Assembly (NCBI GenBank): GCA_020186115.1
Contig: WSYJ01000153.1
Location: 310,001 to 374,000, forward strand
Length of the DNA stretch: 64,000 bases
From: Histomonas meleagridis
Taxonomy: Eukaryota > Parabasalia > Tritrichomonadida > Dientamoebidae
Direction of reading: 5' to 3'
Of this stretch, positions 1-52,430 are shown in pieces. The notes under the pieces are model-generated. The model was not told where the DNA came from. It was given only the letters and a program-made list of their open reading frames with translations, and did no database searches. The stretch's first letter is position 1; the number at the start of each line of letters is the position of its first letter. Both the position numbers and the translations under genes were made by a program.

Positions 1-1968
1 TTATTAAAATAAATATCAAATAAAACAAATAAATATCTTTAGCATTAATATCAATTCCTTCTTGTTCAAGAAGTAATTTAACTATTTCTGTATGACCATA
101 TGCAGATGCCAAAATAAGTGCTGTACAAAATAATTTAAACAATCTCCAAATATTAATTTAAAATATTCCAAAATTATAAAAATAAATTTTAAATAAAATG
201 AATAAATATCTTTAGCATTAATATCAATTCCTTCTTGTTCAAGAAGTAATTTAACTATTTCTGTGTAACCATTTTCAGATGCTAAAATAAGTGCTGTTTT
301 AAATATTTTAAATAATTTCCAAATATTATAATGATATCCTAAATTAGTAAAATAAAGAAAAAATAAAACATATAAATATCTTTAGCATTAATATCAATTT
401 CTTTTTGTTCAAGAAGTAATTTAACGATTTCTGTATAACCAATTTCAGAAGCTAAGATTAATGCTGTAATAAACAATTTGAATAATTTTCACATTATATT
501 ATGTTTAAATTAAGTAAAATTATTAAAATAAGCTTTAAATAAAACAAAGAAATTTTTTTAAAATTGATATCAATACCTTTTTGTTCGAGAAGTAATTTAA
601 CTATTGATATATAACCTTTTTCAGATGCTAAAATAAGTGCTGTTTTAAATAATTTAAAGAATTTCCAAATATTATATTGAAATATCAAATTATAAAAATA
701 AATCGAATGATATTATAGTGAACATCATATGTATTGATATCAATTTCTTCTTGATTTAATATATATTTAATAAGTTCTATATTTCGTGATTCCAAAGACC
801 TAAGGAATACACTATTTGTACAAGTGCTATTTTTGAGTAAATGCTTAACAAGATATAAATTACCAATTTCCACAGAGTTTTCCATAATAATATTAACAAA
901 TTTGGAGCTTTTTTCTTCCAAAAATGGAATAATTTCATAATTTCCATATAAAACGCTTAAATATCCCAAGTTCTCAATTTCTTTCACGTTATTTACATCT
1001 AATTTTTCCAAATTATTTTCATAAACATAATGAAAGATATCATTTCGATGAAATTGTATTGCTGCTTCATATACACCTTTAAATGATGAATGATTTTGTT
1101 CGCATAAATGAATAATTTCAAGATTTCCACCTGCAACAGCATATTTACCTGTGCTTTTAATATTGGCACCATTCATAAGTAAATACTTAAAGCATTTAAT
1201 TGATCCAAAAAATGCTGCAAAATCAATTAATGAAATACTATTTTTATTAATAAAATCATAACTTTCATAAAGCGATGGATAAATTTTTAGATTAAAACAA
1301 AAATCATTTTGTGATGATATTTCTTGAAATTTTTCTATTTCATCATTTCTAATTAATATTGAGATTTCATTTGGATTAACTCCTTCTTTAATTAACTTCT
1401 TATGAAGTTCGAAATCATTTTTTGAAAGAGAATCATAATTAGATCTAAAACTATTCTCAATTGTACTATAATCATATGAACTTTTATTTTCAAAAATTGT
1501 TTTGTATTGTGCAAAAAATTTAGTTGGAAGACCTTTAATAATATCTGTACCAACCAAATTTTCTTCAATCATTTTCGCAATCAGAAAAAATGATTCTTGT
1601 GTTGTTGGATGAGTTAGAAATATTGAAAAAATTTCAGTAATCTTATAAATGTTTTTGTCAATTTCTTCTTCTTTTTTTTGAATTGTTTTAATAAAGTTTA
1701 TATATGTATCAATCGATTTCTTTCTTGAATAATATGCTGCATAAACTAAATTACTTACAACTAAATTAAATGAATATGGCGAATCTGAATCAAACAAATT
1801 CATTGTTTGTTGAACTGTTAAATCAAAATTTTCTTCAGTTAAATTTAAAATAATTTGTGAAAGTGAAGAAAGTATTTTCATGCCACCATCCTTAGAATCA
1901 TTTTTGCTCTTAGTTAAATTTGTGATAATGTTTTCTTCCATATCTTTTACTTGTGATTTTTTTGTCAT
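1..1968 (-). CDS. DUF3447/ankyrin-repeat protein, interrupted gene (3' end outside window)
   Basis: The first block, from the ATG at 1968 to about 722, is open for roughly 415 codons and carries a DUF3447-type region: the ELHKKLI.EGVNPNEI and GANI..TGKYA.AGGNLEIIHLCEQNHSSF segments match the paralogue at 8.4-9.7 kb. It ends in a first ankyrin unit (IELIKYILNQEEIDINTYD). Further ankyrin units follow, with conserved Thr codons at 643, 467, 297 and 124, separated by AT-rich linkers with in-frame stops. Straight translation stops at 685 inside the first linker. The gene appears to continue past base 1. DUF3447 and ankyrin domains form a very large trichomonad family of unknown function. Only 39 bp separate this start from the ATG of the opposite gene at 2008. 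Confidence 0.75.
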
Positions 1969-4389: not shown

Positions 4390-5729
4390 TCATTCATCGC
4401 GGGCGATACCAGTTTCATCGCTTGGCTGTGCTTTCTTCTCAAGAATTGCAGTTATTATTTCAGTATATTCGAATTGTGCTGCTATCACTAGTGCGGTAAC
4501 AAATTATATAATCAAACACCAAATTTTCATATGAAATATTAAATTATATTAACAAACCTTAAACCAACAAAATAAGCGTCTTTAGCTGTGAAATTAATAC
4601 CTCTTTGTTTAAGAAGTAACTTAACAATTTCGATGTGATTTTTTCTTGTTGCAGCAATTAGCGCTGTATCAAATATATCGAAAATATTCCAAAAATTGTT
4701 ATAAAACATCAAATTATGGAAATATACATAAACAGTATTAACATCGATATCATCCTTATCAAGAAGCTTTGAAACAATTTTAGTATGTCCTTTTTCACAA
4801 GCTAAAAAGAGTGCAGATTTATATAAAGAAAATAAACGCCTTCAAATGATTAAAACAAATATTATTTTTCATGTTGATTTTAAGTTCAGGCTTAGTAAGA
4901 AGTAACACAACAATATCAATCTTTCCTTCTTCGATTGCAACCATAAGAGCCGTCATATAAATTTTAAATAATTTCCAAAAATTACGAAAAAATCTTAAAT
5001 ATATATAATAAACATCATCAACAGCATTAACATCAATTCCATGGCTAACAAGCATTCGTGCGATTGTAATGTAATTATTCTTAGCAGCGGTCATAAGAGC
5101 TGTAAAAAAATCAAATAAACTCCAAAAATTAAAATGAAATATAAAAATATTAAATAAATATTTGTATGGAAAAAATAAATGTTTGAGATGTTAAGGTCAA
5201 TTCCGTTTTGTTGAATGAGTAAGGAAACAATTTTATCATTGTTGTTGAGCGTGGCAACCATTAATGCAGTTTCAAATTAAATTTATAAATACCAAAAATT
5301 ACGTTGAAACATCAAATTATCGAAAGTAACTATAAAGACTTTAATTAAACATTAGTAATGTTTAAATCTATTCCGGCAATAACGAGCATTTTGGCAATTT
5401 CAATATAATTATATTGAGCAGCATATATCAGTGCTGTGTTGAAAGAAATATATTAACCCCGAAATGTTTTTTGAAATATTTCCAAATAAATTAAATAAAT
5501 ATCTTGGGCATTAACATCAATACCATTTTGAGCTAGAAGACCTTTAACAATTCTGGTAAGTCCTTTCATTGAAAAGTAAATGAGTGGAACTTGTAATTAT
5601 CCAAAAAAATTCCAAATAAAATTTTGAAACTTCAATTACATTTGTTAGGATGAGTACTCCATTGTCAATCAAGCACTTGATGAAAGTAACAAGTTCTTCA
5701 TGTTGTTCAACTTCCAAAGATGCTTCCAT
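4390..5729 (-). CDS. complete ankyrin-repeat gene of nine blocks
   Basis: The ATG at 5729 opens a block (MEASLEVEQHEELVTFIKCL...) that ends at the first linker. Eight more ankyrin blocks follow, with their conserved T-(A/P)-L codons at 5590, 5437, 5270, 5103, 4953, 4817, 4667 and 4497. The last runs into a C-terminal tail (KKAQPSDETGIARDE) and a TGA at 4390-4392. Every block is open and keeps one phase once the linkers are dropped, which yields a protein of about 280 residues. Linkers at 5270-5103 show the common pattern; several others are shorter (about 52-69 nt). N-terminus and tail resemble the gene at 10341-11544. Ankyrin repeats bind proteins; the partner is unknown. If the linkers are not removed the gene is a string of fragments. 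Confidence 0.65.
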
Positions 5730-5737
5730 CTTTTATC

Positions 5738-5744
5738 AAAATGA
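5738..5744 (-). promoter_or_regulatory. initiator TCATTTT of the ankyrin gene
   Basis: TCATTTT on the minus strand, 9-15 nt before the ATG at 5729, fits the trichomonad Inr consensus TCA(+1)YTTT. It supports that ATG as the true 5' end of the ankyrin gene. Confidence 0.55.
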
Positions 5745-5914
5745 AGATTAATTAATGCCAATAATCAGAACAATCAAAATCAATTCAAAAAGCGAAAATG
5801 TCAAAATATATTCGGTTGGAAAGATTATAACGGATAAAAAGTAATTGGCATTTTTCATGAACGATAATATTTAATACAAAAAGTGGGGGATTTGGCAAAA
5901 AATCTACCGGTCGA

Positions 5915-5963
5915 ATTGTATACTTTATCGAAAGGTAAAACAACGATCAATAAAGTATACAAT
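5915..5963. repeat. perfect 14-bp inverted repeat
   Basis: ATTGTATACTTTAT (5915-5928) is repeated as its exact reverse complement at 5950-5963, with a 21-nt loop. It lies in a gene-free stretch between two ankyrin genes. No ORF for a transposase is nearby. Confidence 0.7.
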
Positions 5964-6174
5964 ATGCCTAATGTGGCCAAATAAATTAAGAAAATATTTC
6001 CAATTGATTATAAAATGCAAACAATAAGATACTGTAATTTGTTTGGTTTATTCTTTAAAGGGTAGCGTTTTTGTATTTCGAAAGGAATTGTGATATGAAA
6101 AATGATCGTTGCCATATGGCAAGAGATTTTGAAAATGCAATATGGCAAGATTGTATCCGGTTAAAAGAGTTTAA

Positions 6175-6310
6175 ATAACACAAATAAATATCACATTTAA
6201 CATTAATATTAATTTCTTTTTGTTAAAGAAGTAATTTCACAATTTCAATCATGAACGATGTATAAAACAATAGAAATAATTTCCAAATGTTGTGTTTAAA
6301 TAGCAAGTTC
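6175..6310 (-). pseudogene. ankyrin unit relic
   Basis: On the minus strand an ATTTGG-N21 linker end is followed by a shortened ankyrin block (ACATCGTTC...ATTGTGAAATTACTTCTT) that runs into a TAA and then the usual ATTAATATTAATGTTAAA and GATATTTATTTG linker start. The helix region is partly deleted, so this is a decayed unit beyond the end of the neighbouring gene. The rest of 5730-6580 holds only the inverted repeat listed separately. Confidence 0.5.
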
Positions 6311-6580
6311 TTCAAACATATTAATATATACGTTAATAATCTATCTTTAAAAGTGAATTAAAGCGAGTTAAAGAAATGGTTTCAAATTGTATGCATATAC
6401 GGCCAAACAAAGCCTTGCCAATTCAAACATGATGGACCATTTATGTATTCAATTTGATTTTTTGAAAAACAATTTTTCAAACAAAAATTTTTTATTTCCA
6501 TAAAATATTCAAACATAATCATATACATAACATGGTGTTTATATAAATTTATCTATAAGAATGAAAATAAGGGCATTTGA

Positions 6581-9500
6581 TCATTTTAGCTTAAAATACA
6601 ATCATTGGTTTTCGAAAATATTTTGAATGAATTTCAAATCATTAATATAAATTTTAAACAAAATAAATAAAATTTGTTAGCATTACTATTGTTTTGAAAT
6701 TCAAGAAGCAAATTGGCAATTGTAGTATTTCCTTTATTATTCGCATACATTACTGCTGTCATAAATTAAATAAATAATTTCCAAATACTATTTTGAAATA
6801 GAAAATTATTAAAATAAATTTTAAATAAAACAAATAAATATCTTTAGCATTAATATCAATTCCTTCTTGTTCAAGAAGTAATTTAACTATTTCTGTATGA
6901 CCATTATAAGATGCACACATAAGTGCTGTTCGAAATACTTTAAATAATTTCCAAATATTAATTTAAAATATTCCAAAATTATAAAAATAAATTTTAAATA
7001 AAATGAATAAATATTTTTAGCATTAATAACAATTCCTTTTCGTTCAAGAAGTAATTTAACTGTTTCTGTATGACCATTTTCAGATGCTAAAATAAGTGCT
7101 GTTTTAAATATTTTAAATAATTTCCAAATATTATTTTGAAATATCAAATTATTAAAATAAATATAAAAATCTTTAGCATTAACATCAATACCCTTTTGTT
7201 CTAGAAGTAACCTCACAATATCTGTTTTTCCTTTCATAGATGCTAAAATAAGTGCTGTTCTAAATAAAATGAATAATTTCCAAATATTATTTTGATATAT
7301 AAAATTATTAAAATAAATTTTAAATCAAACAAATAAATATTTTTAGCATTAATAACAATTCCTTTTCGTTCAAGAAGTAATTTAACTGTTTCTGTATGAC
7401 CATTTTCAGATGCTAAAATAAGTGCTGTTTTAAATATTTTAAATAATTTCCAAATATTATTTTGAAATATCAAATTATTAAAATAAATTTCAAATAAAAC
7501 AAATAAATATCTTTAGCATTAACATCAATACCCTTTTGTTCTAGAAGTAACTTCACATTATCTGTTTTACCTTTCATAGATGCACATATAAGTGCTGTTT
7601 GAAATAATTTAAATAATTTCCAAATATTATTTGGAAAAATAAAATTATTAAAACGAATTCTTAATAAAAGAAATAAATATCTTTAGCATTAATATCAAAT
7701 CCTTTATGTTCAAGAAGTAATTTAACTGTTTCTGTATCACAATTTGTAAATACAAGCATAAGCTTAGATTGAAATATACTTAATAAAATTCAAGCTTTAT
7801 ATTAAAAATTCCAATTATAAAAAAAAACAATAAATAATTTAAATAAGCATCTTTTGAATTTATATCTATTTCTTTTAGTTCAAGAAGCAATCGATAAACA
7901 TCAAATTGATTGTTTTCTAATGCTTGTTCCAATACAGTTCGAAATCAATGATAAAAAATCCAAAAATTATTAATGTACATAAAGTAATTAATATAAATAA
8001 TATTTTTATAGTTTAAATATATCCCATGTTCAATCAATATTTTAACTACTTCAATATATCCTTTCTTACATGCTCCATTAATCACACTTTCAAATAAAAA
8101 TAAGAAACACCAAAATATTATAAAAAACTAATTTAAATCAATATAAAATACAGTTTTCACATTAACATCAATTCCTTTTTGTTTAAGCAAAAATCGAACA
8201 GTTTCAACCTGATTTCCAGAACATGCATAATAAAGTGGTGTATAACACTTATAAAAGAAACGCCTTAAAAATATTTAAAACATTAAAAAATTATTTTGGA
8301 TTTGAAATTTTTTTAAAAAACATTTATGATATTAACACTCATTCTTTTTTCTTTAATAAAAAATTTAATAATATTAATGTAACCTTTATAACATGCAATT
8401 TGAAAAGCTGTTTGAAATAATATTAAGGAAATCTCAATTTAAATTTAAAACATAAAATTCAAAAGTTTAAACTTTAAATAGAAAAAATATAAATCTTCGA
8501 AATTAATATCAATACCATTTTGTTCAGATACATATTTAACAAGATCAATGTTTCCTGAATAAGTTGATTCAATTAGAAGATTATTTGGAATATAATTATT
8601 TTTATTGATGAAATATTTGACAAAGAAAAGATTTCCAAGTTTTGCAACCTCTAAAATGTTTTCCCTATCGATTTTTATACCACTTTCTTCCAAAAATGAA
8701 AAAACTTCATAATTAAAAGATGTAATACATAACATTACGGCTTCTTTTGGTTTAGTAAATTTAAGAATTTTATTCTCATAAATATATTTAAAGATATCAT
8801 TTCGGTGAAATTTAATTGCAGTTTCATATGCACCTTCAAACGATGAATGATTTTGTTCACATAAATGAATAATTTCTTCATTTCCACCTGCAATTGCATA
8901 TTTACCTGCATTCGATAAATTTGCACCATTCATAAGTAAATATTTAAAGCATTTAACAGATCCAAAAAATGCTGCATAATCAATTAATGTAACATTTTTA
9001 TGATTAACAAATGAACATCTTTCATAAAGCGATGGTTCAATTGTTTGATTAAAATCAAAATTTGCTTGTGATGATATTTCTTGAAGTTTTTCGATTTCAT
9101 CAGATCGAATTATTTTCGTAATTTCATTGGGATTAACTCCTTCTTCAATTAGTTTTTTATGAAGTTCCCAATCATTCTTTGAAAGTTCACTCAAGTTTTC
9201 ATCAAAGAATTTCTGAAATTGTTCTTCTTCTTTCAATACATGAAAATCTTTTACTGAAAGATAACTAATAAACAAAAATGTTGACTTAGCTTTTGCAATT
9301 TCTTTACTAATAATATTTTGTTCAATTAATTTTTCTAAAAAATGATAAGATTCGTGCGATTCATTATTAAGAAGAACTTGAGTAAAAATTTCAAAAATTT
9401 TGAATTTGGTTTTTTCATGAATAAAATGAATAAATTGAATATAAAGAGAACTATTCATGGGTTTAACTAAAAATAATGAATATATTAATTGACATACAAT

Positions 9501-9656
9501 GAGAATAAAAGAATTTTGGAAATTGTAATTGTATAAATTCATAAGTAGTTTAGTAACTTCTTTTATGTTATCATCATTTAACTTGTAAATAATTTGTTCA
9601 ATTTCTTGTAAGTATTTCAACCCATGATCACTGTTCTTTGCTTCAGAACATTTCAT
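6581..9656 (-). CDS. DUF3447/ankyrin-repeat protein, interrupted gene
   Basis: The first block, from the ATG at 9656 to about 8490, encodes a DUF3447 region closely similar to the gene at 685-1968 (ELHKKLIEEGVNPNEI; AAFFGS.KCFKYLLMNGANLS; AGGNEEIIHLCEQNHSSFEGAYETAIKFHRNDIF) and ends in an ankyrin unit. Eleven further ankyrin blocks have conserved Thr/Ser codons at 8411, 8241, 8088, 7938, 7768, 7598, 7428, 7258, 7102, 6929 and 6759. A last linker leads to a tiny terminal block with TGA at 6581-6583. Blocks between 7.6 and 6.9 kb are nearly identical in pairs, showing recent tandem duplication of the 170-nt exon-plus-linker unit. The gene end is inferred from linker geometry. Confidence 0.65.
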
Positions 9657-10340
9657 TTGAATATCCGACCGTTATAAACCGAACAAATTTTGAGTGTGTA
9701 TTCAAATAATTTCTTATTAAATTAATAAACTATTCAAATATTCATGCCGGTACATCTCTGAAATGTATGAAGACTGATTATAAAAATACAATATTAGTTG
9801 AACAAGAAGTTCATTGTGACGAATGAAAATAACGAAACTTAAATTAATTGACAATACAATTTTAAATAATTTTTTATCAAATGTAACTTTGAAATGATTA
9901 GTGTTTTTTCTTAAAAAAAAAATGATGAGACATTTTTTTTTATAATTCTTTTAAGTGCACTTCAACGTCACAGACTTTAAACAAATTCGACCTAATTATA
10001 AACTGCCATCATAATAATATAAACAAATTCATCTAATGATAGAACTAATGAATAATAAATAAAACATGTTGAATTCCTTATGTAATGGTGTCGAAATAAT
10101 CTATTCAAATTATTTTACTTATAACAATATCGGTTTTTTATATTAAAAAACAGTACGATAAAAATATATACAAAATAATATCTTAAAATAAATAGAAAAG
10201 ATGAAAAATCAATCCGAACATGTTCATGCTTTTGATGATCATATATGGATACACCAATGATTGGAACAGATAAGGTTCGATTCCATGATAGTTATCTCGA
10301 GCTTGTATTTAAAAATTAAAATAAAATTTCTGATTTTTGT
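9657..10340. other. intergenic stretch
   Basis: AT-rich sequence between two minus-strand ankyrin genes. I see no ORF, ankyrin relic or repeat worth listing. A short palindrome (GAACATGTTC) occurs near 10217. Confidence 0.5.
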
Positions 10341-11544
10341 TTATTCAACTCTTTCAATAGAAGATTCTTCACTTGGCTGATTGTACTTATTGTAAAGTAA
10401 GCCAACGATTTCAATGTATCTTTTATCACCAGCAATCATGAGTGCGTTGAAAAGTAACATAAACAAACGTTAAATAATATATTGGAATATTAAATCAAAT
10501 ATATGAACGTCAATAACAAATAATAAACATCACGTTCTTCAAACTTAATTCCGGGTTGTTCAAGTAAAATGCTAACAATGTTCATGCAATTGTGTTCTGT
10601 AGCAATAATAAGAGGTGTTCGATGATATTCAAATAAATTCTGAAAATAATTATAAAACCTTAAAACATTATAATGAACATTAAATGATATCAATAAATAT
10701 CAATAGCATTAATATCAGCGCCTTTTTGGATAAGTATTTTAACAATTTTTTCATGACCTTCTTGTGAAGCAATCATAAGTGCTGTAAGAAATATTTTATA
10801 TAAACTCCAAATAAAATAATGAAATAGAATTGTTCTTTTCATCGATTGATAATCCATTTTTATTAAGAAGGACTTCAACTATATCAAGATGACCTTCTTT
10901 GCATGCTTTCATTAAGGCAGTTTCAAGTACTTAAAGAAAACACCAAATAATATTTTGATATATCAATATTTTGGGAATTGACTTGAATGTTTTCCTTTTT
11001 AAGAAGGGCCTTTACAACATCAAGATGTCCTTTTTGGGATGCCTTCATGAGAGAAGTTTCAAATTAATCAAAGAAATGTCAAATAAGTTGTTGAAATTTT
11101 AAATCATTAGAATTAACACTAAGCCATAAAAGTAAACATCTATGGCATTTTCTTCAATTTCTTCTTTTTCAAGAAGCATTTCGCAAATTTCAATATATCC
11201 TTTTTCAGATGCATACGTCAAGGCAGTATAAAAAACATTTAATGGACTCCAAATTGATTAATGAAATATTAAAATATTATTATGAATCTTGTATGAAAGA
11301 AATTAATATCCTTTAAGTTGATATTTATGCCTTCTTGTCCAAGGAGTACAGAAAATATTGAGACCAGACCTTTGTCTGCCGCATAAATGAGTGAAGTTTG
11401 AAATTATTAAATAAAACACCAAATATAAAAATGAAATATTAAAATTTCTAGATAAACCTCGTACTTAAGTTGTTGATTTATATTAAGAATTTCGTTTTTA
11501 ATGAAACACTTTAAGAAATTATCAGCTTCTTGTTGGAAATTCAT
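10341..11544 (-). CDS. complete ankyrin-repeat gene of eight blocks
   Basis: The ATG at 11544 opens MNFQQEADNFLKCFIKNEIL..., followed by seven ankyrin blocks with conserved Thr-position codons at 11397, 11227, 11057, 10921, 10785, 10618 and 10448. The last block reads into a tail (NKYNQPSEESSIERVE) and a TAA at 10341-10343. All blocks are open in one phase when the linkers are omitted. Several linkers are the standard 83 nt (for example 11397-11227-11057, spaced 170 nt), while two near 10.9 kb are only about 47-49 nt. The tail shares a QPS(D/E)E-like signature with the gene at 4390-5729, which argues that both are intact genes and not decaying arrays. Function unknown. Confidence 0.65.
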
Positions 11545-20126: not shown

Positions 20127-20704
20127 TAAAACTGCACTTCATATAGCAATTTGTTTGAGTAATATAAATATGCTTAAATTACTTTTATAACAAAAGGAAT
20201 CGATAATATTAATGCAAAGTATATTCATTTTAAGAATTTGAAATTTGTATAAATAATTTAAAATTTGATTATATTATTTAATATTTATTTCTTTAATTTG
20301 ATGTTAACTTTAAAGTTTTGTTGTTTATTTAACTTATAATTTAGATTTTAATAAATGTTTTAATATTTTAAAATTCATTTTAATAACTTGAAATTTATTA
20401 TAATGATTTGTAATTTATTATAATGATTTGAAACAGCACTTCATTTAGCATTAGAATCTAAAAACATTGAAATATTTAAGTTACTTTTAAATCAAAAAAC
20501 AATTGATATTAATGCTAAAAATGTTTATTCACTATAAATAATGTTTATTTTAATAATTTAGGAATTATAAAAACTATTTGGTCATCATTTATATTATTTG
20601 AGTCGGTAATTAATAATAATTTAGTAACAAGTCATCCTGAATTATTCGAATCACTTAAAAATAAAGCACAACAAATTATGGAATTTATGAATGCTGTTAA
20701 ATGA
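20127..20704 (+). pseudogene. 3' remnant of an ankyrin gene with expanded linkers
   Basis: A first unit at about 20127-20210 (ACTGCACTTCATATAGCA...) has a TAA within its second helix. A second unit from 20434 (ETALHLALESKNIEIFKLLL...INAKN) is intact. A standard 83-nt linker (AATGTTTATT...TTTGG-N21) follows, and a terminal block from about 20605 ends with TGA at 20702-20704. The interval between units one and two is about 300 nt instead of 170, filled with TTTATTTTAATAATTTG-like repeats. No start block is visible upstream. I regard this as the decayed 3' part of an ankyrin gene. Confidence 0.5.
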
Positions 20705-20753
20705 GTTAAATGTAATATTTTAAAATAATATTTGGAATTTATATAAATCATTT

Positions 20754-21175
20754 AACACTTATGGTAGCTTCTAAGTTTGGTAAAGTTGAAATATTAAAGA
20801 TACTTCTTGAACAAGAAGAAATTGATGTTAATGCCAAAAATTTTGATTTATATTGTTTTACATTTGTTAAAATAATTTGAAATTTCTTTATAATATTTGG
20901 AAACTATGAAAATTATTTAATACAGCACTTCTGATTGCAAATAAATCTGATAATACAGAAATTGTTAAATTACTTCTTGAACACAATGAAAATGATATAT
21001 ATACGAAAGATATTTTTATGTTTTGTTTAATATTAATTTCAATAATTTAATATTTAAATTTAATGTTTGGAATTTATTATAAAATTTTAAAGACCCATTT
21101 GTAAATGCAGCTGAGAGTAAACAAATTGACATACTTCAAATGCTCATCAATAAAGCTCAAACACAAAATGAGTAA
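20754..21175 (+). pseudogene. 3' ankyrin blocks of a second plus-strand array
   Basis: Three blocks: TLMVASKFGKVEILKILLEQ from 20754, TALLIANKSDNTEIVKLLLEH from about 20930, and a terminal DPFVNAAESKQIDILQMLIN block ending in TAA at 21173-21175. The two linkers between them keep the 44-nt plus TTTCN/TTTAA-N8-TTTGG-N21 geometry exactly. The array lacks a start block, and the linker before it has a 2-nt slip in its 3' arm. It is a fragment, or the end of a gene whose 5' part is decayed. Confidence 0.5.
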
Positions 21176-35773: not shown

Positions 35774-36203
35774 GTTGTGTATATGTGATTTGTGTTTGTG
35801 TATATGTGATTTGTGTTTGTGTATATGTGATTTGTGTTTGTGTATATGTGATTTGTGTTTGTGTATATGTGATTTGTGTTTGTGTATATGTGATTTGTGT
35901 TTGTGTATATGTGATTTGTGTTTGTGTAGATGTGATTTGTGTTTGTGTAGATGTGATTTTTGTTTGTGTATATGTGATTTGTGTTTGTGTATATGTGATT
36001 TGTGTTTGTGTATATGTGATTTGTGTTTGTGTATATGTGATTTGTGTTTGTGTATATGTGATTTGTGTTTGTGTATATGTGATTTGTGTTTGTGTATATG
36101 TGATTTGTGTTTGTGTAGATGTGATTTGTGTTTGTGTATATGTGATTTGTGTTTGTGTATATGTGATTTGTGTTTGTGTATATGTGATTTGTGTTTGTGT
36201 AGG
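35774..36203. repeat. 21-bp minisatellite, about 20 copies
   Basis: Tandem copies of TATGTGATTTGTGTTTGTG plus two bases (period 21). Variants have AGATGTG for ATATGTG in three copies and TTTTTG for TTTGTG in one. One strand is almost entirely G and T with isolated A. Because 21 is a multiple of three, long open frames exist in several phases (Val/Cys-rich on plus, His/Lys/Ser-rich on minus), but none has credible coding context. It sits between the glycosyltransferase gene and a gene-poor 500-bp stretch. Confidence 0.9.
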
Positions 36204-50684: not shown

Positions 50685-52430
50685 ATGATTTTAGCCGTAT
50701 TCTTGTGTGCTATTGCATCAATCAAAATCAGTGATCCCAATTACTGTGAAGATTGTGAACCATGCAAGAAAGGTGAGTACTGGCCTTCTGATACAACTCA
50801 TCATTGCGTAAAATGTCCGAAAGGAACATATAGTAATGTTCGAGAATCAAGGTCATGCACAACATGTCCTGCTGGTTACTATGCTGATGAGGTTGGATCT
50901 AAGCAATGCAAACCATGTCTTCAAGGTTATTATTCAAACTCAAGTGATTCTTCTTCTTTCGAAACTTGCAAGAAATGCCCATCCGGCACAACAAGTGAAA
51001 AGTCTGAGGGTTCAACCAAATGTATTTCAACTCAATGTTCAGCGGGAAAATATTTCGATACTGAAAGTTCGAGTTGTCGGAATTGTCCATACGGCACATA
51101 TTCTAATTCCACTGACACACCAACATTTTCATCATGTAAGAAATGTCCAGCAGGCACAGCAAGTGGTTCACACACCACCTATATATCTGGTGGAATTTAT
51201 AAGACTGGCGCACCGAACTGTGAATTCTGTAAAGCAGGTACTTATTCAAAGGAAGGTGCGGGAGCATGTTCAGCATGTCCAGCAGGTACATACTCTGAAA
51301 AAGGAGCAACCGGATGCATAAAATGTCCAAAGGGAACATATTCAACCCAAGGTTCAAGTTCATGTACAAGATGCCCCAGCGGCTCTTATTCAGATGAAGA
51401 AGGATTAGGTTCGTGCAAGAATTGTCCATATGGTTCATATTCTAATTCCACTGACACACCAACATTTTCATCATGTAAGAAATGTCCAGCAGGCACAGCA
51501 AGTGGTTCACACACCACCTATATATCTGGTGGAATTTATAAGTCTGGTGCACCGAACTGTGAATTCTGTAAAGCAGGTACTTATTCAAAGGAAGGTGCGG
51601 GAGCATGTTCAGCATGTCCAGCAGGTACATACTCTGAAAAAGGAGCAACCGGATGCATAAAATGTCCAAAGGGAACATATTCAACCCAAGGTTCAAGTTC
51701 ATGTACAAGATGCCCCAGCGGCTCTTATTCAGATGAAGAAGGATTAGGTTCGTGCAAGAATTGTCCATATGGTTCATATTCTAATTCCACTGACACACCA
51801 ACATTTTCATCATGTAAGAAATGTCCAGCAGGCACAGCAAGTGGTTCACACACCACCTATATATCTGGTGGAATTTATAAGTCTGGTGCACCGAACTGTG
51901 AATTCTGTAAAGCAGGTACTTATTCAAAGGAAGGTGCGGGAGCATGTTCAGCATGTCCAGCAGGTACATACTCTGAAAAAGGAGCAACCGGATGCATAAA
52001 ATGTCCAAAGGGAACATATTCATCTTCAACAAGTGCCACAGGATGCACAAAGTGCGCTGCCGGCTATTACTCAGATGAAGAAGGCTCACTCAGCTGCAAG
52101 AAGTGTCCTCAATACTCCACATCTACCGAAGGTTCGTCAGAATGCCAAAGCACGCGCTGTCCAAAGGGTTCGTACACCACATCATCAGGATCATGTGCTC
52201 AGTGCTCCGCTGGTTACTACTCAGATGAAGAAGGCGCTAAGACATGTAAGAAGTGTCCAGCCGGTACATATGGTATTGCAGCCGGTGCCACATCACTTAA
52301 CCTTTGCTACAACTGCCCATGCGGAACCATATCAGCAGAAGGCTCTTCCAAATGTACCGAATGTTCACCAGGATACTTCCCTAACAAAGAGCAATCCAAG
52401 TGCATGTTAATCGAAGACGATGACGAATAA
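50685..52430 (+). CDS. secreted Cys-rich repeat protein (ephrin-receptor/GCC2-GCC3-like)
   Basis: A 581-residue protein with a signal peptide (MILAVFLCAIASIKISD). It contains many CxxC.G(T/Y)YS...G...C modules of the TNFR/ephrin-receptor Cys-rich (GCC2_GCC3) type. A 113-residue block (339 bp) starting near 51103, 51442 and 51781 is repeated almost without change; the third copy diverges in its last 30 residues. There is no transmembrane helix; the end is acidic (IEDDDE), so the protein is probably secreted or bound non-covalently at the surface. Such proteins are abundant in trichomonads and in other protists as surface or matrix proteins. Ligand unknown. Confidence 0.85.
   Translation: MILAVFLCAIASIKISDPNYCEDCEPCKKGEYWPSDTTHHCVKCPKGTYSNVRESRSCTTCPAGYYADEVGSKQCKPCLQGYYSNSSDSSSFETCKKCPSGTTSEKSEGSTKCISTQCSAGKYFDTESSSCRNCPYGTYSNSTDTPTFSSCKKCPAGTASGSHTTYISGGIYKTGAPNCEFCKAGTYSKEGAGACSACPAGTYSEKGATGCIKCPKGTYSTQGSSSCTRCPSGSYSDEEGLGSCKNCPYGSYSNSTDTPTFSSCKKCPAGTASGSHTTYISGGIYKSGAPNCEFCKAGTYSKEGAGACSACPAGTYSEKGATGCIKCPKGTYSTQGSSSCTRCPSGSYSDEEGLGSCKNCPYGSYSNSTDTPTFSSCKKCPAGTASGSHTTYISGGIYKSGAPNCEFCKAGTYSKEGAGACSACPAGTYSEKGATGCIKCPKGTYSSSTSATGCTKCAAGYYSDEEGSLSCKKCPQYSTSTEGSSECQSTRCPKGSYTTSSGSCAQCSAGYYSDEEGAKTCKKCPAGTYGIAAGATSLNLCYNCPCGTISAEGSSKCTECSPGYFPNKEQSKCMLIEDDDE

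Follow-up and report, generated by a model that had tools for sequence, protein, structure and literature searches.

The DNA analysed here (the window) is a stretch of 64,000 nucleotides (nt) from Histomonas meleagridis (assembly GCA_020186115.1, contig WSYJ01000153.1, positions 310,001 to 374,000). It carries genes of a DUF3447/ankyrin family in which blocks encoding single ankyrin repeats are separated by short AT-rich linkers. This inter-block pattern is real, occurs genome-wide and is best explained as introns. We suggest that each ankyrin repeat lies on its own exon and that the linkers are introns removed from the RNA, and we give this reading a probability of roughly 0.78. The exon would be about 93 nt long and read x-Thr-Ala-Leu...Asn-Ala-Lys-Asp/Asn, and the intron would mostly be about 77 nt. 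At the level of sequence, the blocks clearly behave as translated and selected ankyrin repeats and the linkers as untranslated. The predicted switch points lie just past the Asp/Asn codon, where the linker begins with RTTTATTT, and just ahead of the codon before Thr, where it ends in TTTGG, 18 nt and TTT. The spliceosome of the parasite would probably read these T-rich signals in place of GT-AG and a CTAAC branch site. Exon and intron together would make up one 170-nt unit that is duplicated in tandem, so that repeats could be gained or lost without breaking the frame while exposed residues diversify.

Linkers and blocks were tabulated over the window and loci L022-L050, which gave 253 adjacent block pairs. 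One pair is spurious (-9 nt) and was left out of the linker motif tables, and signal counts over 247 linkers leave out six pairs, namely this one and five linkers longer than 110 nt. The DNA profile fully covers 236 blocks, of which two have a stop and five have a frame-breaking insertion or deletion (indel), whereas a consensus block mutated in simulation at the rate and spectrum of the linkers acquires a stop in 39.7% of cases. Stops were also mapped on 167 units of 170 nt, per codon slot, against the expectation from column composition. The block slots contain 0 stops against 98.9 expected, although this count is biased because the units were found by an in-frame profile; the count of 2/236 and slot 167 are free of this bias. 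Slot 167 is the codon preceding Thr, and it has 0 stops against 22.4 expected. Since it lies outside the profile that found the units, detection cannot account for the absence of stops. In the linkers, stop frequency is as base composition predicts, both in the upstream frame (5 against 5.9 expected at slot 93, 8 against 11.8 at slot 96) and in the downstream frame (11 against 13.4 at slot 158, 11 against 12.3 at slot 161); slots 87 and 90 of the upstream frame and slot 164 of the downstream frame are uninformative. Among pairs chosen by the linker middle (45 pairs), the codon before Thr differs at 43% of sites, the preceding TTT at 2.2%, the middle of the linker at 6.7% and the blocks at 21%. 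This variable codon encodes mostly K, N, R, E, W, Y, Q and D. The triplet ahead of it is TTT in 147 of the 167 units, another triplet in 20 and TTC in none, which suggests a nucleotide signal rather than a Phe codon. Stop mapping and the TTT context together indicate that the removed stretch starts at, or at most two codons past, the Asp/Asn codon and ends at TTT. This narrows each junction to a few bases, one behind the Asp/Asn codon and the other behind the nearly invariant TTT.

The substitutions in the blocks point in the same direction. In 32 units less than 70% alike, composition-corrected identity is 0.35, 0.58 and 0.18 at the three codon positions of the blocks, and 0.30 for the linkers against 0.40 for the blocks as a whole. 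An earlier sequence-only reading of this DNA had claimed that the linkers are more conserved than the blocks and had argued from this for introns; the order is the reverse, and that argument fails, although linker identity does exceed that of codon position 3. In 41 pairs picked by linker similarity alone, the ratio of nonsynonymous to synonymous changes is 51:43 at core positions and 349:62 at other positions (p=7.5e-10, an optimistic value since the sequences are related, for core positions that we chose from the ankyrin consensus). Most amino-acid changes fall at block positions 4, 5, 8, 9 and 11, which, like the codon before Thr, we take to be exposed sites in ankyrin repeats. The changes in the blocks look like diversification of exposed residues upon a conserved fold. 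Hypervariability at these positions and at the codon before Thr is as expected for a recognition repertoire.

The blocks are 87 nt in 236 of the 253 pairs, 84 nt in 16 and 81 nt in 1. Linker length is 83 nt for 173 of the 253 pairs, 66 nt for 25 and 63 nt for 8; the remainder includes 49, 80, 84 and 86 nt among still other values, within a range of 43 to 323 nt, and lengths that are not multiples of three turn up freely. The sequence-only reading was right about blocks of about 87 nt and about 83 nt in most linkers, but 83 is the mode and not a rule, so the linkers are not uniform as it had claimed. Its in-frame stops are present in the 83-nt linkers (115/173 in the upstream frame, 89/173 in the downstream frame). 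Its internal layout, 44 nt, TTTCA, 8 nt, TTTGG and 21 nt, was likewise borne out. Of 85 divergent linkers (less than 72% alike), 83 reach 49 nt or more. A TTTGG-like motif lies at -26 in 59 of these 83 and exactly 20 nt further upstream in 17; at each offset of 1-4 nt from -26, it is present in one linker at most. By the DNA profile, the 5' part of the linker has 4.48 indels per kb and TTTC-N8-TTTGG has 1.30, against 1.64 for the blocks. The final 21 nt have 0, a zero helped by local alignments that end at the model end. In loci L045 and L049 (also L016 and L020) the linkers consist of a unit of about 20 nt (AATATGTTTTAATAATTTGA type) that is present 1 to about 15 times. Linker lengths of 43, 63, 103, 123, 163 and 323 nt include those of L045 and L049, where copy number varies; this implies that such linkers can grow in 20-nt steps with the block frame kept.

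The family and its layout were found throughout the 43.28 Mb H. meleagridis assembly of 121 contigs. The DUF3447 open reading frame (ORF) of the window has at least 103 relatives among 5730 first-look candidates, and 102 of the 103 lie in frames that stay open for at least 394 amino acids (aa). The family profile gives at least 150 matches, all above the cut-off and 2 with an internal stop (1695 candidates). Block arrays are present at 34/34 other family loci, namely 20 (L031-L050), 9 (L022-L030) and five more (ranks 1-4 and 18 of the family list), and all 34 have blocks at about 130-176 nt past the DUF3447 ORF. A block used as query has at least 150 matches (9711 candidates), none with a stop and 148 in open frames of at most 201 aa. 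A typical linker used as DNA query has at least 83 matches from the best 40 of 1213 candidates. Introner-like mobile introns would have copies in unrelated genes. Within 271 kb sampled, 283 of 295 linker-profile matches lie in ankyrin arrays and 12 outside; the best of these 12, with an expectation value (E) of 0.009, is within a long linker of the plus-strand array of the window. No relative was found on viral contigs (27 pattern matches). A literature search found no account of such linkers; most subscription papers and all bioRxiv preprints were outside its scope. The DUF3447 ORF has few matches among H. meleagridis database proteins despite the at least 103 close relatives as long open frames, and most of the family may be missing from the annotation.

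The arrays also end like genes. Among 25 arrays of at least three blocks, 15 close with a truncated ankyrin cap and their own stop (e.g., TALDYASSNGHKKVVELLHVVE and stop); for 12 of them, TTTGG is absent from the 160 nt past the cap. The ten others were not scored as caps; three end on a full block, three have a further linker and a possible mini-exon, one is a wrong-frame match, one continues and two run off the sequence. Two genes on different contigs, L034 and L036, have the tail ITDKANDQMEFFPFW and a stop in common, and a QPS(E/D)E tail is common to genes A and B of the window. Removal of the linkers before translation, as the sequence-only reading had proposed, is thus supported by blocks under coding constraint, linkers that tolerate stops, an abrupt change from one to the other, gene-like starts and ends, and an identical layout at 34/34 other loci.

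Several points weigh against this interpretation. We infer linker removal by RNA splicing from the DNA sequence alone, and no known splice signal explains it. The Asp/Asn codon is followed by RT in 194/247 linkers and the codon before Thr has TTT ahead of it in 209/247. GT stands at the first linker place in 28/247. A frame-keeping, stop-free GT-AG pair exists in 73/247 linkers, and the best fixed place accounts for 18/247. The best fixed in-frame AT-AC pair is found in 134/247, yet it lies 23 nt inside the linker and does not fit at the border. ACTAAC and CTAAC occur in 0/247 linkers; CTAAT and TTAAC occur in 15/247 and 11/247. Linker RNA has no convincing structure, with a consensus fold of 0.0 (82 linkers), a mean minimum-free-energy z of -0.32 (40 folded) and a top covarying stack of 0.29 against a null maximum of 0.27 in 30. 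The true junctions may lie one or two codons away from those given here, and the shortened loop (Asp-x-Thr) would be unusual for an ankyrin repeat. Finally, the ratio of nonsynonymous to synonymous rates (dN/dS) is near 1 in close unit pairs (1.32, 0.90, 0.95 and 0.60 by distance band). Between gene C of the window and its closest copy, five blocks differ by 2 synonymous and 13 other codon changes, and the first exon by 19 synonymous and 32 other changes over 1190 nt. This dN/dS and the 2 against 13 changes suggest that recent purifying selection on whole blocks is weak.

Known intron types and other ways of reading the linkers were compared with these data. The U12-type 5' site is RTATCC. The linkers start with RTTTATTT instead and have no fixed in-frame AT-AC ends at their borders, so U12-type identity is not supported. 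Nor is canonical U2-type parabasalid identity, since GT...AG pairs that restore the frame are present in a minority of the linkers and at no fixed place, and a CTAAC-type branch site was not found. Euglenid-type non-conventional introns are held by RNA structure, and no paired ends were seen in 82 linkers. Reading the linkers through as protein was also rejected; the 66-nt type is often open but has a stop in 11/25, and a length of 83 nt is not divisible by three. A programmed -1 frameshift at TTT-AAA-A before Thr was dropped in view of the hypervariable codon that follows TTT. The canonical 3' motif ACTAACACACAG has 3 genome matches against 2 for the control, so it provides no ordinary Histomonas intron set for comparison, and scans of the 271 kb for CTAAC-type motifs gave none callable as an intron. 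Two U2 genes, 97% identical, have GTAGTA, and a U6 candidate, slightly below the gathering score, has ACAGAGA. U2 and U6 therefore look canonical, which suggests that canonical splicing exists in this organism. A U1 search gave no match, but its control was silent as well and the search is uninformative.

The weak recent selection would fit arrays that are decayed or satellite-like, with the DUF3447 ORF alone expressed and ending in the first linker and the downstream blocks left as non-coding remnants. Clearly decayed pieces do exist at 20131 (+) and near 6.2 kb (-), and the Histomonas proteins found in public databases end at or ahead of the first linker. Decay is nevertheless improbable, because stops are found in 2/236 blocks where about 40% would be expected, slot 167 is free of them, amino-acid changes spare the core positions, and the arrays have end caps with stops. 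Blocks that are many in copy and hypervariable at exposed positions might instead be silent cassettes, that is, intact gene-conversion donors for an expressed copy, with the linkers as homology arms. This is quite improbable, as each of the 34 DUF3447 genes examined has its own array, the arrays are polar with a first exon and a stop-carrying end cap, and homology does not need the exact spacing from TTTGG to Thr. Ordinary GT-AG introns with misplaced borders are made conceivable by the GTAGTA of U2 and the ACAGAGA of U6, but the scarcity of usable GT-AG pairs and the absence of CTAAC given above make them very improbable. Ribosomes that hop over the linkers in unspliced mRNA would suit gaps that are in phase 0, nearly constant in length and followed by a fixed landing context, but such translational bypassing is the most improbable of all, since take-off (GAT/AAT) and landing (TTT) codons differ, no linker RNA structure was found, and up to about 20 hops in succession would be required per gene.

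Three minus-strand arrays lie wholly inside the window; in these and their neighbours, a 29-residue block profile detects 29 blocks. Gene A (10341..11544, -) would comprise an ATG exon (29 codons before the first linker), seven ankyrin blocks and a last exon with the tail QPSEESSIERVE and a stop at 10343-10341. Its first linker (11398..11460, -) joins the ATG exon to the first block (GAG, then GTTTATC...), whose Thr codon is at 11397. Linkers of 83 nt separate blocks 11397 and 11227 (11228..11310, -) and blocks 11227 and 11057 (11058..11140, -), and two short linkers of 49 nt (10922..10970 and 10786..10834, -) retain TTTGG-N21. Gene B (4390..5729, -) would run from an ATG exon through eight ankyrin blocks, whose linkers are divergent, to a last exon with the tail QPSDETGIARDE and a stop. 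The sequence-only reading had called both genes complete, and their ATG exons and similar C-terminal tails ahead of a stop agree with this. Gene C begins with a DUF3447/ankyrin ORF (8445..9656, -), an open frame of 403 aa whose final residues extend into the first linker. Its array (6586..8411, -) comprises eleven ankyrin blocks and the linkers between them, followed by a last linker and a putative end exon of 10 codons with a stop at 6588-6586. A typical 83-nt linker of this gene (7429..7511, -) served as the genome-wide DNA query. The block starts reported at 11397, 11227, 11057, 7938, 7768, 7598, 7428 and 7258 (-) were recovered by the block profile, 7768 through a partial match at 7735. 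A decayed ankyrin piece with a stop lies downstream of gene C at 6140-6330 (-), and a similar stop-bearing block is found in L032. Gene D (1..1968, -) starts with a DUF3447 exon (ORF 1968-685), has ankyrin blocks at 643, 467, 297 and 124 (-) and extends beyond the window. ORFs 1968-685 and 9656-8445 belong to the DUF3447/ankyrin family by profile, with PF11929 scores of 44 and 36.7 bits against a curated cut-off of 26.9. The plus-strand array (20131..21175, stop 21173-21175) had been reported as a further copy of the layout; the array is present but partly decayed. Its first block is frameshifted and contains a stop, one block near 20.6 kb can no longer be recognised, and there are four further blocks. 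Elsewhere in the window, a 339-nt unit is repeated 2.8 times at 99% identity within a 581-aa ORF (51080-52022), and a 21-nt unit about 20 times at 98%, with both strands open (35775-36201).

Proteins of other organisms resemble these genes in part. Among 16 relatives, metagenome proteins often end just past KDI, KDV or the like (for example P0003, P0007, P0011, P0012 and P0014). P0006 and P0040, proteins of a relative, appear from the protein alone to read through a linker of the same layout, with a TTTGG-like motif, 21 nt and an out-of-frame Thr codon. P0010 has a linker-free junction, NSK-NVMFE-SALMKA, and then a second junction that runs into linker-like residues; a protein search with its linker-less part (5 candidates) matched itself and one other. 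P0042 and P0043 of Tritrichomonas foetus have the N-terminal region and ankyrin type of Histomonas, but in the portions of these proteins covered their repeats are contiguous at 34 residues without linkers. Another T. foetus protein, P0051, ends in residues that, judging from the protein, could come from reading through a short AT-rich stretch behind ankyrin Asn-Asn, in the position that the linkers occupy in Histomonas.

One ankyrin repeat per exon is not new in itself. Vertebrate ANK1-3 have one-repeat exons with the same phase on both sides and long GT-AG introns, whereas the Histomonas introns would be about 77 nt, with T-rich borders and an ancestry shared with the repeat unit. Trichomonas vaginalis has 63 introns, one per gene; each is of the GT-AG type, and its CTAA branch site is fused to the 3' end. 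Three two-intron genes of T. stableri were reported as the first such case for a trichomonad (PMC12316389). These introns are likewise short and AT-rich with tightly spaced 3' signals in a parabasalid host, but Histomonas genes commonly have 5-22 linkers each, without GT-AG or CTAAC. The simplest account is that exon and intron are copied in tandem as one unit and that splicing of the introns uses signals not known from trichomonads. Introns of the tunicate Fritillaria are also reported to escape the GT/AG rule, there as a genome-wide trait (PMC13326754), whereas the Histomonas linkers appear restricted to ankyrin arrays within the 271 kb sampled and have an internal fixed-distance motif. We regard it as possible, at somewhat short of even odds, that the linkers are a new class of many hundreds of short phase-0 introns, running from RTTTATTT after Asp/Asn to TTTGG-N18-TTT ahead of the variable codon and lacking GT-AG, AT-AC and CTAAC. 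They might be excised from one repeat family by dedicated recognition, or by a separate machinery beside the canonical-looking U2 and U6, and might serve to expand and diversify an ankyrin recognition repertoire.

The published H. meleagridis annotation has 573 introns and at most one per gene (PMC8529796). The 20 loci L031-L050 have about 166 linkers, which extrapolates to about 850 over the at least 103 genes. If the linkers are spliced, the number of parabasalid introns, the gene models and the repertoire of splice signals would need revision. In that case, a large ankyrin family with hypervariable exposed residues would be absent or truncated in the annotation of H. meleagridis, a poultry parasite.

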